IMG/VR virus record: IMGVR_UViG_3300008113_000501
Span: 1 to 24,397 of that record
DNA length: 24,397 bases
DNA from: a virus
Reading direction: 5' to 3' (one strand)
In this document: positions 870-19,540 of the stretch, one piece after another
Layout: each line of letters opens with the position of its first letter
Position numbering within the stretch: position 1 is the stretch's first letter
Made by a program: the position numbers and the translations under genes
The notes under the pieces: model-generated
Seen by the model: the letters and a program-made list of their open reading frames with translations, nothing else
Told to the model about the DNA's origin: nothing
The model's database searches: none

Positions 870-1175
870 TCAATCTTTCACAAAGGTACCGTTTACAGTT
901 TTACCAGTACGGTTTTCAATCACTTCATATGCTTTATTAAGAACGTAGTGAGGGCTATACCCTAACTGCTGGGTTAGGATGATAAGGGTGACAAAGGTAT
1001 CACCCAGACCATCGACTAATTCGTCCTCGTTGTTCTTGAGTAAGGCACCAGCTGTTTCACCCATCTCCTCAACTACCTTGAGTGCTTGGCGAACAGCATT
1101 GTCTCTATGAATTAGATTCCGCTTATCTGCCCAAGCTGTTACCAGGTGGCAGAGGGTATTCATATCTGGGTTCAT
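870..1175 (-). CDS. MazG-like nucleotide pyrophosphohydrolase
   Basis: A 101-residue single-domain all-alpha NTP pyrophosphatase. Enzymes of this superfamily hydrolyse NTPs or dNTPs to the monophosphate and pyrophosphate, and phage members may adjust nucleotide pools or (p)ppGpp. The EExxE motif is at residues 36-40 (VEEMGE). The second metal-binding motif is around 52-59 (ELVDGLGD), with Asp55 and Asp59. Length fits the short phage MazG-like group, not the two-domain bacterial enzyme. The ATG overlaps the upstream stop as ATGA, which supports this start and suggests translational coupling. A dUTPase-like all-alpha enzyme remains possible. Confidence 0.78.
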   Translation of the reverse strand: MNPDMNTLCHLVTAWADKRNLIHRDNAVRQALKVVEEMGETAGALLKNNEDELVDGLGDTFVTLIILTQQLGYSPHYVLNKAYEVIENRTGKTVNGTFVKD

Positions 1176-1627
1176 TTAACAGTAGCTAACAGTTGTTGTA
1201 GCGTGTAGGGACCATCCCACGTAACGTCGTCATATCCTTCGCTACGATAGATACGCATCTTGGTAATTACCTTACCCTCAAAATCTTTCGGGTTAAGGAT
1301 AAAGATTTGTGTCGCATCGTCGGCACAGTCAATGCTCGCATGATCAACGATCTCCGCTGTCTTCGTACCGTCTGAGAATAGAAAGATGATTCGGCTCCGC
1401 GGAGTACCAACGCAGCCAATATCAGCTGTAGTAAAAAGATACAGCCCAGTCGTCTGAGCGATATTAAATGCAACTCCATGAGCTAGACCATCTCCTTTTC
1501 CGAGGATGTAAAGGTCTGTCATTTTCTGTGCAATTCCAGTAAACTCATCAATCTCATTCTCGGCTAATTTTTGAGCAGAGACATAAGTAGACACCAAAGC
1601 AAACGCCAATACTGCAAAACTTTTCAT
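1172..1627 (-). CDS. Secreted hypothetical protein with signal peptide
   Basis: 151 residues when started at the internal Met at 1627. A longer in-frame reading reaches 1663, but it overlaps the small gene upstream and places a signal peptide internally. From 1627 the N-terminus is MKSFAVLAFALVSTYVSAQ, a typical signal peptide with cleavage after SA. The mature part is beta-rich with two Cys that could form a disulfide. No family recognised. Probably exported to the periplasm of the infected cell. It sits in the same transcription unit as the M43 metalloprotease, also exported. Confidence 0.7.
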   Translation of the reverse strand: MKSFAVLAFALVSTYVSAQKLAENEIDEFTGIAQKMTDLYILGKGDGLAHGVAFNIAQTTGLYLFTTADIGCVGTPRSRIIFLFSDGTKTAEIVDHASIDCADDATQIFILNPKDFEGKVITKMRIYRSEGYDDVTWDGPYTLQQLLATVK

Positions 1628-1646
1628 ACTAAAAAAATTAAAGGGA

Positions 1647-1784
1647 TTAAAGGTCATAGTCATCTTCCCAGTCTTCTAGAGGTTCTTTGTGGTTGTTCTG
1701 ATATTTAGCACATAACGAGCATTGAATCTTGCATGGAACAGCGTCCGGATTCACCATATCATTTTGACAGTAGAACTCTTCCAT
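1647..1784 (-). CDS. Small Cys-rich protein, possible zinc binder
   Basis: A 45-residue ORF starting MEEFYCQNDMVNPDAV and ending in the acidic tail EDWEDDYDL. Four Cys at 6, 18, 22 and 25 (C-x11-C-x3-C-x2-C) could bind zinc or form disulfides. There is no signal peptide, so zinc is likelier. Its stop lies 20 nt upstream of the 1627 start and it fills the gap before the DUF3310 gene, so spacing supports a real gene. Function unknown. Confidence 0.55.
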   Translation of the reverse strand: MEEFYCQNDMVNPDAVPCKIQCSLCAKYQNNHKEPLEDWEDDYDL

Positions 1785-1801: not shown

Positions 1802-2110
1802 TCAGTTGTTAGGCAGGTCTTTGTATTTAATCTTATCTACTTGCTGTGCGGTTGCGAGTTCGATAAGAATGTTAATGTAATGACGTGCTTTCAGTAAGTC
1901 CTGTAAGCCGTTCTTCTCTTTGTGGCGAGTCACATACTTGATGATGTTACCCTCGCAGAAACCAATGTTGTTTGCCACGATGTATTCTACAGGTTCAATC
2001 TTACAATCCTTGTAGTGTTCTCCACCTACTTGGATATTTAAAGACTCAATCTCTTTCTTTTTTCTAGGTTCGTTATTCTCCATAGTCTTGTAGTTGTCGA
2101 AGTAATTCAT
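1802..2110 (-). CDS. DUF3310 family protein
   Basis: Contains the hallmark block QVGGEHYKDCKIEPVEYI followed by NNIGFCEGNIIKYVTRHKEK and a C-terminal helix with LLKARHYINILIE, the full signature of DUF3310. T7 gp1.7, a nucleotide kinase, is a known relative, so a role in nucleotide metabolism is plausible. Two starts are possible: 2110 (102 residues) or the ATG at 2083 (93 residues). The latter overlaps the metalloprotease gene by 11 nt instead of 38 and is somewhat more likely. The MazG-like enzyme is encoded downstream. Confidence 0.82.
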   Translation of the reverse strand: MNYFDNYKTMENNEPRKKKEIESLNIQVGGEHYKDCKIEPVEYIVANNIGFCEGNIIKYVTRHKEKNGLQDLLKARHYINILIELATAQQVDKIKYKDLPNN

Positions 2111-3227
2111 AAACGTCTTCAGGTTTTCTAGCCGGGGAATCGGGCACGACTAAATTATAGCAATTACAGTTATCTCCATATACATTAAGTAGATACAGTA
2201 AGTCATTGGAGGTAACGAAGTGGTCTAAATCCAAGTCACCATCCGTACAATACTCGCAACCCATTTGCGCAAGTAAGTATAGAATATCACTAGTACCCCG
2301 ATTACAATCACCATCTAAATCTCCAAAACAAAACACGTCATCAGAAAAGAGTTCAAGTCTTTGATACTCTAACAAGGCGTGCATCCGCTCAATCTGACCA
2401 GGTGTAAATACATCTCTACATTCCTCTTCACAATAGTCCATATGGTTATTGGCATAGAAGGGTACTCCACCATAGTTACTTGAAGGGCAGTAGTACCCCG
2501 GAACACCTGGGCAACCATAGCTAACCTTTGTGGGAGGAGTATCACATACAAAGTCTCCTGTATGTTCACACGGGCCAAGGTTCTGTCCGCAATACTGTAC
2601 TACTGTGCCAGCATCTTTAAATACGTGGTGCAGTCCGCAGTAGTGACCCATCTCGTGAGTGAGGGTTTCATTCTCGAATCTCCATGTAAGATGAGGACCA
2701 GTAAGACCCATCATCTCTGTCTCTACCCACACCCCGTCAAGTACACTCCAAGGAATGAATGTAGTCCAAGCAAAGCCAAGAATCGTAGAGCAGAAGTCTG
2801 GAGCCACATAGATGTTACAATACTCAGCTGTGTTCCACTTAACCAAGTTGGTCCACTGTGCCATCTGTGTGGTATACGTAGGGAAGCACACACCGCTTGT
2901 TGAACGGTATGAAGTAGCCCACCCAAACGAATTCAAGTTAGTGTAGGTAATATCTTCAAGAGTAAAGGAGATGTCAGTACCTATGAAGTCCACATTGAGC
3001 TGATCCATAGCAGCCTCAATGATAGGTTCTGAAATCTGGCTAGCAGTAAACGCTGTATCCCATAGGATATGGACTACACACCGAATCTCTTTCTGCAGAT
3101 ATACCCTGTTTTGAAAATGATTGCGTGGTAACGGGTCAGATTGGTCTCCCATTACCACGCAGTCTTGTTGGGCTACTATTGCTGTCGTAGGTATCAACAG
3201 CAATAATAAATTTAGGAACTGTCTCAT
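2073..3227 (-). CDS. Secreted M43-type zinc metalloprotease with dockerin-like repeats
   Basis: 384 residues from the Met at 3227. The N-terminus MRQFLNLLLLLIPTTAIVAQ is a signal peptide. The catalytic motif HEMGHYCGLHH (about 191-201) matches HExxHxxGxxH. It is followed by Cys-rich segments, DFVCDTPP, and a Met-turn HMDYCEEECRDVFTPGQIER (about 262-281). This is the order seen in pappalysin/cytophagalysin (M43) enzymes. About residues 300-352 contain two Ca-binding-like loops, GDLDGD and DGDLDLD, each followed by a LLYLL-type helix, resembling a dockerin or EF-hand pair. It would cleave extracellular or periplasmic proteins. TATCTTTG lies just upstream. An in-frame extension to 3254 would bury the signal peptide. 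Such a gene is unusual in a phage. Confidence 0.88.
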   Translation of the reverse strand: MRQFLNLLLLLIPTTAIVAQQDCVVMGDQSDPLPRNHFQNRVYLQKEIRCVVHILWDTAFTASQISEPIIEAAMDQLNVDFIGTDISFTLEDITYTNLNSFGWATSYRSTSGVCFPTYTTQMAQWTNLVKWNTAEYCNIYVAPDFCSTILGFAWTTFIPWSVLDGVWVETEMMGLTGPHLTWRFENETLTHEMGHYCGLHHVFKDAGTVVQYCGQNLGPCEHTGDFVCDTPPTKVSYGCPGVPGYYCPSSNYGGVPFYANNHMDYCEEECRDVFTPGQIERMHALLEYQRLELFSDDVFCFGDLDGDCNRGTSDILYLLAQMGCEYCTDGDLDLDHFVTSNDLLYLLNVYGDNCNCYNLVVPDSPARKPEDVYELLRQLQDYGE

Positions 3228-3245
3228 TAGGATGAATTTACACCA

Positions 3246-3275
3246 AAGATACAAGTTCCTATAAGTATAGGAATT
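3246..3275 (-). promoter_or_regulatory. Putative promoter and inverted repeat upstream of the metalloprotease
   Basis: On the minus strand TATCTTTG (3246-3253) matches the Bacteroidota -7 box TAnnTTTG and lies 18 nt before the ATG. Immediately upstream is the inverted repeat TTCCTAT-ACTT-ATAGGAA (3258-3275), which could be an operator. No TTG is present at the expected -33 position. The spacer between the endolysin-like gene and the protease gene is otherwise empty. Confidence 0.5.
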
Positions 3276-3286
3276 AAATAATTCCT

Positions 3287-3751
3287 TTACTCCTCATAAG
3301 GGATGTAAATAGTCTTACCTCCTTTCCGAATTGCACGCAGGATTTCTTTGTCGTTATTACCCTTCTGATAGGCGACGTGTACCCAATCAGGATTCTCATC
3401 ATCTCCAAACTCCCAGATAAGTTGTTTGAAGTCTAAGTTGTCTTTGATGTAGTTGAAGATGGCAACATTGGTGATGTATGTGTATCCATCTACATCCAAG
3501 TCTAAGGCACATCCCTTCATGTGGTCAGAGGTCTTGCTGCCTTTGATGAGCTTGTTTAATGCTTCGGAACGGAAGCCAGAGCTAACCTTGATAGGCACAC
3601 CGAAAAAGTCTCTCACGCGTTGAAAGACTTCGGTAGCAACCAGTTTTAAGTTTTCAAGTTGTTCATCGTTAGGCATATTGGAAATGCCGTTACGAACTGC
3701 GGTATCAGATTTGATTACCTCTTTGAGTGTGAGATGTTTGCTTAAATACAT
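3287..3751 (-). CDS. M15 family peptidase, probable endolysin
   Basis: 154 residues. The core is SSGFRS (57-62), then SDHMKGCALDLD (75-86), with zinc ligands His77 and Asp84, and WVHVAY with His125. This is the M15 D-Ala-D-Ala carboxypeptidase / L-Ala-D-Glu endopeptidase pattern common in phage lysis enzymes. It would cut peptidoglycan stem peptides. The N-terminus has no signal peptide, so export would need a holin or another route. No holin is obvious next to it. A virion-associated or host-modifying role cannot be excluded. Confidence 0.85.
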   Translation of the reverse strand: MYLSKHLTLKEVIKSDTAVRNGISNMPNDEQLENLKLVATEVFQRVRDFFGVPIKVSSGFRSEALNKLIKGSKTSDHMKGCALDLDVDGYTYITNVAIFNYIKDNLDFKQLIWEFGDDENPDWVHVAYQKGNNDKEILRAIRKGGKTIYIPYEE

Positions 3752-18398: not shown

Positions 18399-18498
18399 AA
18401 TGCTCTTGATTACGCTCGTGTGCCAGTATCCCAGAAGGAGTAATGAACTGCTGCCCGTTACGGGTGTAGATGTAGGCGTGAACTGTTTCGTCCATCAT
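18376..18498 (-). CDS. 40-residue hypothetical protein
   Basis: MMDETVHAYIYTRNGQQFIT, then PSGILAHERNQEHYVYAVQS. The first ATG overlaps the stop of the upstream membrane-protein gene as ATGA, so it is likely translated by coupling. Strand-rich, unknown function. Confidence 0.5.
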   Translation of the reverse strand: MMDETVHAYIYTRNGQQFITPSGILAHERNQEHYVYAVQS

Positions 18499-18767
18499 GA
18501 AAAGGAGTTGATGTAGAGAATGGTTACTGCGACGGAATAGACTACAAAGAATGCTCCGACGATAGCAAGTACAGTAGCAAGTTTACCCATCTGATGGATA
18601 ACCTTCTCTAGTTGGTTAGAGATTTCGATGATGTTGAATCCTGCAGAGACGTTAGCTCTGTGCTCAAGATCCTCGTCGTCGTATGTATTAGCCTTTTTGA
18701 ATTTCTCCATCGCATAGTTCTGGAGAAGTTTCTGCGCTACGGCAGCTGTGTCGAAGTATTCTTTCAT
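18495..18767 (-). CDS. Small C-terminally anchored membrane protein
   Basis: 90 residues. Residues 1-60 are soluble and helical. Residues 63-86 (LATVLAIVGAFFVVYSVAVTIL) form one transmembrane helix, with a short YINSFS tail. No signal peptide. It could be a membrane-associated inhibitor or a lysis-related protein, but nothing specific shows this. It lies 3 nt after the 18771 gene. Confidence 0.65.
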   Translation of the reverse strand: MKEYFDTAAVAQKLLQNYAMEKFKKANTYDDEDLEHRANVSAGFNIIEISNQLEKVIHQMGKLATVLAIVGAFFVVYSVAVTILYINSFS

Positions 18768-19300: not shown

Positions 19301-19540
19301 TCACCATTTGACGCAGGTACCTGGTCGACGGCCCCAGTCGCCATGGACTCGACGCTGGTAGGCATTGAACGTACGGTCTCCACGCTTACGGAGTTCCCAC
19401 GTATGGTTCTTCCATGAGTGGTAGCTACCCGAGTAGGCAGGACGCATCCAGCTACCCATACGACGCTTAACAGGACCTTCGGCTTGTGCGTTGATAGAGA
19501 AGGCAGCAAGCAAGAGAGAGAGGAACAAGAAGTTTTTCAT
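19301..19540 (-). CDS. Secreted small basic protein
   Basis: 79 residues. MKNFLFLSLLLAAFSINAQA is a signal peptide with cleavage after the AQA. The mature ~59 residues are very basic and Trp/Arg-rich (KRRMGSWMRPAYSGSYHSW, WELRKRGDRTF, HGDWGRRPG). No family recognised. A positively charged exported mini-protein could act on the cell envelope. It is a single-gene unit ended by a strong terminator. Confidence 0.7.
   Translation of the reverse strand: MKNFLFLSLLLAAFSINAQAEGPVKRRMGSWMRPAYSGSYHSWKNHTWELRKRGDRTFNAYQRRVHGDWGRRPGTCVKW

Follow-up and report, generated by a model that had tools for sequence, protein, structure and literature searches.

A phage-encoded M43B metallopeptidase with a C-terminal dockerin-type module and its possible part in host lysis

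Pappalysin-type proteases occur in bacteria and have a place in human pregnancy biology, and a gene for such an enzyme in viral DNA raises the question of whether it is a stray piece of host DNA or a maintained phage gene and, if the latter, what it may do during infection. The gene studied here lies in a stretch of 24,397 nucleotides (positions 1 to 24,397 of the IMG/VR record IMGVR_UViG_3300008113_000501), called the window throughout. The original prediction described it as encoding a secreted M43-type metalloprotease with dockerin-like repeats, unexpected in a phage, that could alter the host surface, assist lysis, act on an animal gut or marine environment or be recently captured host DNA. 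In the literature searched on M43 proteases and pappalysins in phages or viruses, and on metalloproteases in lysis cassettes, no such phage protein has been described, and in the same literature no proteolytic step of phage lysis carried out by such an enzyme was found. The features of the locus are listed in Table 1.

Table 1. Features of the protease locus in the window, with positions, strand and basis of assignment.
Feature	Position	Strand	Basis or remark
CDS of 384 aa, secreted metallopeptidase of M43B (pappalysins) with a dockerin-type module at its C-terminus	2073..3227	(-)	ORF, PF05572, phmmer, AlphaFold, VIA
Pair of dockerin-type I repeats with two Ca-binding loops, aa 297-357	2157..2339	(-)	Dockerin_1, 2y3n, invariant residues
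Metzincin catalytic domain, aa 46-292	2352..3092	(-)	Pfam, phmmer, AlphaFold, Foldseek, VIA
Met-turn NHMDY, aa 261-265	2433..2447	(-)	M263 and Y265 invariant among viral members
Zinc-binding motif HEMGHYCGLHH (HExxHxxGxxH), aa 191-201	2625..2657	(-)	Invariant H191, E192, H195, H201
Cys23, putative pro-segment cysteine-switch residue	3159..3161	(-)	Invariant; mirolysin counterpart
Predicted Sec signal peptide, aa 1-19	3171..3227	(-)	Hydrophobic stretch, then [AGS]Q; putative cleavage before Q20
TATCTTTG, putative promoter box ahead of the protease gene (Bacteroidota -7, TAnnTTTG)	3244..3251	(-)	Kept in place in L011
Inverted repeat CCTATA-N2-TATAGG (CCTATANNTATAGG), possible operator	3258..3271	(.)	Absent from L011
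M15 peptidase, putative endolysin, directly upstream of the protease gene	3287..3751	(-)	Peptidase_M15_3 E=1.6e-17; phrog_894 E=1.8e-35

The protease, its zinc site and its dockerin-type module

The ATG at 3227 is the likeliest start of the protease reading frame, with a TTG at 3254 as another possible one. The N-terminus of the protein is hydrophobic and the predicted signal peptide ends in ...TTAIVAQ. A simple rule, a hydrophobic stretch followed by an [AGS]Q site, recognized 69 of 77 viral members, and those failing it were mostly shortened by the start codon chosen. From these features the protein would be exported, in agreement with the secretion originally proposed, and a lipobox-like cysteine was present in 17 viral members.

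The Peptidase_M43 profile (Pfam PF05572), whose cut-off is 23 bits, gave the protein a score of 51.5 bits (E=1.4e-13), and a phmmer search of PDB chains retrieved ulilysin (3lum, 5.6e-15) and mirolysin (2.2e-14), as well as PAPP-A and PAPP-A2, while no family for it was found in PHROGs (best E 0.12). A structural model built with AlphaFold from a 91-sequence alignment reached a pLDDT of 84.8 and a pTM of 0.78, superseding a poor model obtained from 20 sequences (pLDDT 58.7). Searched against the PDB with Foldseek, this model again had its best matches in ulilysin and mirolysin, with E values from 2.1e-15 to 1e-14. Its alignment with pro-ulilysin (8cdb) by VIA-align gave a Z of 24.3 and an rmsd of 2.9 over 248 residues, followed by mirolysin (Z about 23), PAPP-A/PAPP-A2 (about 20-22) and the snake-venom and ADAM metzincins (about 13-14). 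The four zinc-site residues H191, E192, H195 and H201 were invariant in the 91 aligned sequences (47 viral and 44 cellular), and G198 is also present in the zinc motif of the window protease. Within its cysteine-rich core, C213, C239, C247 and C270 of the catalytic domain were likewise invariant in 91/91 viral and cellular sequences and may form the two disulfides that are conserved in M43B. The M43 core, the zinc motif and the Met-turn, originally read from the sequence, were thus confirmed, and by every testable sequence and fold feature the protease is a member of M43B.

The closest known enzymes are the prokaryotic M43B proteases ulilysin and mirolysin (3lum, 8cdb, 6r7w and 6r7v), which share with the phage protease the catalytic fold (220-248 residues, Z 23-24, 27-30% identity), the HExxHxxGxxH motif, the Met-turn and the tyrosine following it, the four catalytic-domain cysteines and a pro-segment at the N-terminus in which a cysteine occupies the switch position. 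In contrast to these enzymes, the phage protease is encoded by phages, has extra conserved cysteines, lacks the Arg21 anchor and, in the group of the window, the Cys-Gly form of the switch, always carries the C-terminal dockerin-type pair and is often found in a lysis cassette. The animal pappalysins PAPP-A and PAPP-A2 belong to the same catalytic family (Z about 20-22), but they are giant multidomain proteins with other ancillary domains, known IGFBP substrates and no link to viruses. Among viral proteins, the Tupanvirus 'Ulilysin' and a Yasminevirus protein have a predicted fold of M43 type (Foldseek E=2.8e-13 and 9.2e-9), although they come from giant viruses of protists and are 21-23% identical to the phage protease. 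The phage M43B protease with its dockerin-type pair represents a new viral form within M43B.

Cys23, a residue unmentioned in the original prediction, was invariant in 47/47 viral members and is commonly located three residues past the predicted cleavage site. In the window protease it corresponds in number and location to Cys23 of mirolysin, which blocks the zinc and so keeps the mirolysin zymogen latent; a further switch of mirolysin activity is a double calcium site (PMC6949598). In the window protease Cys23 is followed by Val rather than Gly (CVVMG), and the group that includes L029 has CGT or CAT. With valine in this place, latency of the window protease by a cysteine switch is likely rather than certain.

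Two complete EF/dockerin loops are present in the C-terminal part of the window protease (D303/D305/D307/D314 and D331/D333/D335/D342), and D303, D314, D331, D342, C300 and C354 were invariant in 47/47 aligned viral members. Of 37 aligned family members, 34 matched Dockerin_1 (best 2.1e-9), and the family profile found solved cellulosomal dockerins in the PDB (2y3n, E=2.3e-7). The dockerin or EF-hand pair suspected earlier is thereby substantiated at the level of the family; the repeat pair of the window itself, searched alone, gave no Pfam match, though all loop aspartates are present. The module resembles the type I dockerins of cellulosomal enzymes in its two Ca-loop repeats and differs from them in the additional Cys300 and Cys354. 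A search for a cohesin partner (PF00963) in 29 phage records gave no match, and a cohesin of the host may serve as partner instead.

Distribution, age and exchange of the gene

A scan of IMG/VR with the protease alignment revealed at least 126 loci that encode relatives, 80 of which were kept. No close relative was found in an isolated phage among 50,697 records, where the single weak match was a short unannotated faecal contig (26.5% identity), and a megablast of the entire window against the phage records gave no match. The opinion that such a protease is unexpected in a phage thus stands for isolated phages and falls for uncultivated ones.

Cellular relatives recovered by a genome scan, mostly from Bacteroidota, were about 25-36% identical in the best segment, and one match of 42% spans just 100 residues. 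A tree built from 129 core domains placed the viral sequences without exception (56/56) on one side of a branch with an SH-aLRT of 95 and a stem of 0.91, a long stem for which the tree tool flags a long-branch warning. The dN/dS ratio was 0.04-0.19 in 19/19 pairs with unsaturated dS, indicating strong purifying selection, and both GC3 and codon use of the protease gene fell inside the range of the other genes of the window. The locus is also syntenic with another contig, L011, in which the gene order, including the protease, is kept and most genes are 58-82% identical, the M15 gene being the best conserved (82%).

These data bear on the suggestion that the gene is recently captured host DNA, or an assembly chimera derived from host contigs, with no role in the phage. 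A few cellular genomes, for example those of the Phycisphaerales (L083 and L085), have an M43 match that extends into the dockerin region, which would speak for this suggestion. However, this explanation is scarcely tenable, considering the 126 viral loci, the single well-supported viral clade far from the cellular relatives found, the low cellular identity, the ordinary codon use and the copy in L011, together with the recurrence of syntenic or context-matched copies in many independent contigs. The tree, the viral loci, the dN/dS values and the codon use point instead to an old, maintained and virus-only phage gene rather than a recent capture.

The protease of the window is 77% identical to that of a distant phage, L002, while the terminases of both phages are 38% identical and two neighbouring genes 29-47%; compared with the syntenic copy in L011, the identity is only 67%. 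In agreement with these values, the window and L002 proteases are sisters in the tree and that of L011 is placed elsewhere. Since the similarity with L002 exceeds both that of the terminases and that of the L011 copy, these sequence comparisons indicate that the gene moves between distant phages. A lysis gene adjoins the protease on both sides of this exchange, M15 in the window and a holin in L002. Another contig, L039, has a protease 74% identical to that of the window and no further ORF in common with it. It was set aside as proof of transfer because it and the window may cover different genome regions, and L002, which shares the terminase, was used. The terminase matches also make a crAss-like affiliation plausible. 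In L007, which is 99.8% identical to the window, a frameshifting deletion of 178 bp was observed in the protease gene (L007 10001-10967 versus window 2270-2447), which takes out the Met-turn and the first dockerin loop and is either a real variant or a misassembly.

Genes and signals around the protease

The protease gene of the window is located 59 bases downstream of the M15 endolysin gene on the same strand, and both genes also adjoin in L007 and L011. M15 as a general partner of the protease was rejected, as in the reverse test it was found in 1 of 80 M15 loci and that one was the near-identical L007; the adjacency is special to the lineage of the window.

Immediately upstream of the protease, most of the other viral loci have a gene for a holin of the phrog_3427 type (E=5.5e-20), with a PF11351 match of 18 bits that is under its cut-off. 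This holin was found in 31 of the 44 records searched and lies at 1.5 kb or less from the protease in 25 of these 31, with 2.3 expected by random placement, a proportion to be taken as an effect size and not as 31 independent trials, since the holin-bearing records are partly related. Both genes were on the same strand in 25/25 cases and the holin was almost always directly upstream, with a gap of about 0-250 bp or an overlap. When IMG/VR was searched in reverse with the holin alone, the protease was found within 3 kb in 26 of 31 loci. Other lysis-type genes were also present: a holin of a different family (phrog_2359, E=5e-12) just upstream of the protease in L078, an M15 endolysin upstream of the holin and the protease in L020 and L021, an Amidase_2 gene 233 bp downstream of the protease in L055 and a DUF5675 gene near it in five records (L052, L053, L060, L065 and L074). 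L188 has no protease, but its gene for this holin overlaps one for an amidase; the holin cluster is therefore a real lysis cassette. The holin occurs without the protease in L188-L190, so the protease must be dispensable for some phages. An assistance to lysis, one of the roles first suggested, gains weight from this clustering. No sign was found of the effects on an animal gut or marine environment that had also been suggested.

No recognized lysis gene was found beside the protease in three groups (L029, L030, L033-L036 and L038; L043-L045; L046 and L048), nor near it in some members of the largest group (L072, L073, L075-L077, L079, L081 and L082). In the first of these groups the protease is directly ahead of phage GroEL- and GroES-like genes. 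In the second, genes close to it encode an adenylosuccinate-synthetase-like protein (PurA/PurZ type) and a nucleotide-sugar dehydratase, the locus of L044 being on a 152-kb contig. In L046 and L048 the M43 gene occurs twice in tandem (products of 377 and about 450 aa), and ahead of both lies the gene for a lipoprotein-like protein of 240 aa with half a dockerin-like repeat at its end.

Some smaller genes were also recorded. Clusters c59 and c60 form a conserved pair between the holin and the protease (L051, L053, L058, L059, L070 and L071), of which one member is a coiled-coil protein with a single TM and the other is small, secreted and possibly thioredoxin-like; in L188 this pair comes after the amidase and the holin, without the protease. 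The single-TM coiled-coil neighbours (clusters c46 and c59) were considered as spanins, but their matches were too weak for such an assignment (E 0.0025 or worse). The window encodes a second small protein with a predicted signal peptide ending in ...TYVSAQ (1172-1663, minus strand), with no Pfam or PHROGs family, whose L011 counterpart is 50% identical and is located two to three genes after the protease. It also contains a 79-aa ORF (19301-19540, minus strand) that begins like a signal peptide (MKNFLFLSLLLAAFSINAQ) and is otherwise basic and rich in Trp and Arg. A 90-aa protein with one C-terminal transmembrane stretch and no PHROG match (18495-18767, minus strand) is a possible membrane lysis factor of the phage.

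The box and the adjacent inverted repeat noticed in the original prediction are both present upstream of the protease gene. The box, TATCTTTG, is located 16 bases ahead of the protease ATG and agrees with TAnnTTTG, the -7 consensus of Bacteroidota. Counted simply as an 8-mer, it was seen once in the window against 1.2 expected, which is not above chance, and TAnnTTTG itself was not clearly enriched in the window. It has been retained as a putative promoter box because it is conserved at the same position in the otherwise diverged spacer of L011. The inverted repeat CCTATANNTATAGG was looked for in the L011 locus and was not kept there.

A possible role in lysis and its alternatives

A model in which the protease is a latent exported enzyme acting during or just after host lysis has about an even chance of being correct. 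According to this model, the infected cell would export the M43B protease through Sec ahead of time, as a latent zymogen in which the Cys23 switch of the short pro-segment blocks the zinc, and the C-terminal dockerin-type pair would bind calcium and probably position the enzyme. The breach of the envelope would then activate the protease, plausibly on contact with outside calcium, through the structural calcium site of the catalytic domain and the dockerin loops. The active enzyme may cut periplasmic, outer-membrane or surface-layer proteins, after which the outer layers would give way and the virions would be released from the debris.

The step proposed, after holin and endolysin, is the one attributed to spanins, which act on the outer membrane during phage lysis of Gram-negative hosts and with which the analogy is functional alone. 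Spanins fuse or disrupt membranes without enzymatic activity and are membrane-anchored coiled-coil or beta-rich proteins, whereas the phage protease is a metzincin, soluble or lipidated, with no homology to them. The Bacteroidetes phages in one survey had unimolecular spanins only (PMC12596118). A broader proposal, advanced here tentatively and with well under even confidence, is that phages of Bacteroidota-type hosts may have a dedicated enzymatic step of lysis, in which a Sec-exported, cysteine-switched and calcium-triggered metzincin would degrade proteins of the outer envelope, alongside or instead of spanins, and would be exchangeable between unrelated phages.

The same export features could also serve a remodelling of the host surface or receptors, in which the protease would trim outer-membrane or surface proteins and block superinfection or re-adsorption of the progeny. 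The signal peptide predicted in nearly all members suits this role, the lipobox-like cysteine of 17 members could tether the enzyme to the outer membrane and anchorage at the surface could come from the dockerin module; in addition, the window protease shares its strand with the genes for replication, and a conserved promoter-like box of its own lies ahead of it. This role is nevertheless unlikely, since by itself it gives no explanation for the repeated position directly behind a holin. It is rather less probable again that the protease is an auxiliary enzyme digesting extracellular or biofilm protein for the nutrition of the host or the spread of the phage. Its cellular relatives are secreted proteases of Bacteroidota, and there is a precedent in the matrixin-like metallopeptidase of the Maribacter phage Molly, proposed to aid the escape of the progeny from matrix or debris (PMC8776804). 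However, the overlap or short spacing with the holin gene favours lysis timing, and the viral branch is old, virus-only and not recurrently taken from hosts. The Molly/Colly enzyme is itself a short zinc metallopeptidase of a flavophage with a weak fold match to the phage protease (E=7e-5), and it differs in belonging to another metzincin family, in its size of 199 aa, in its lipoprotein domain and in that no dockerin pair has been reported for it.

An entry enzyme carried on the virion to open the surface layers of the next host is improbable, although a giant protein of 1,500-3,100 aa, possibly structural, precedes the holin-protease pair in some records. Virion proteins are assembled in the cytoplasm and would not be expected to bear a cleavable Sec signal peptide; moreover, the protease carries no fused structural domain and its neighbours differ among groups. 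Proteolysis during or just after lysis remains the preferred reading of the locus.

Little is known of how phages cross the outer envelope of Bacteroidota. The protease gene can now be removed from the list of odd host-gene captures, and with a widespread virus-only protease located behind holins and moving between unrelated phages, a proteolytic step of lysis becomes directly testable. If the proposed role is true, this protease would add a new type of enzyme with which the envelopes of Gram-negative bacteria can be opened.
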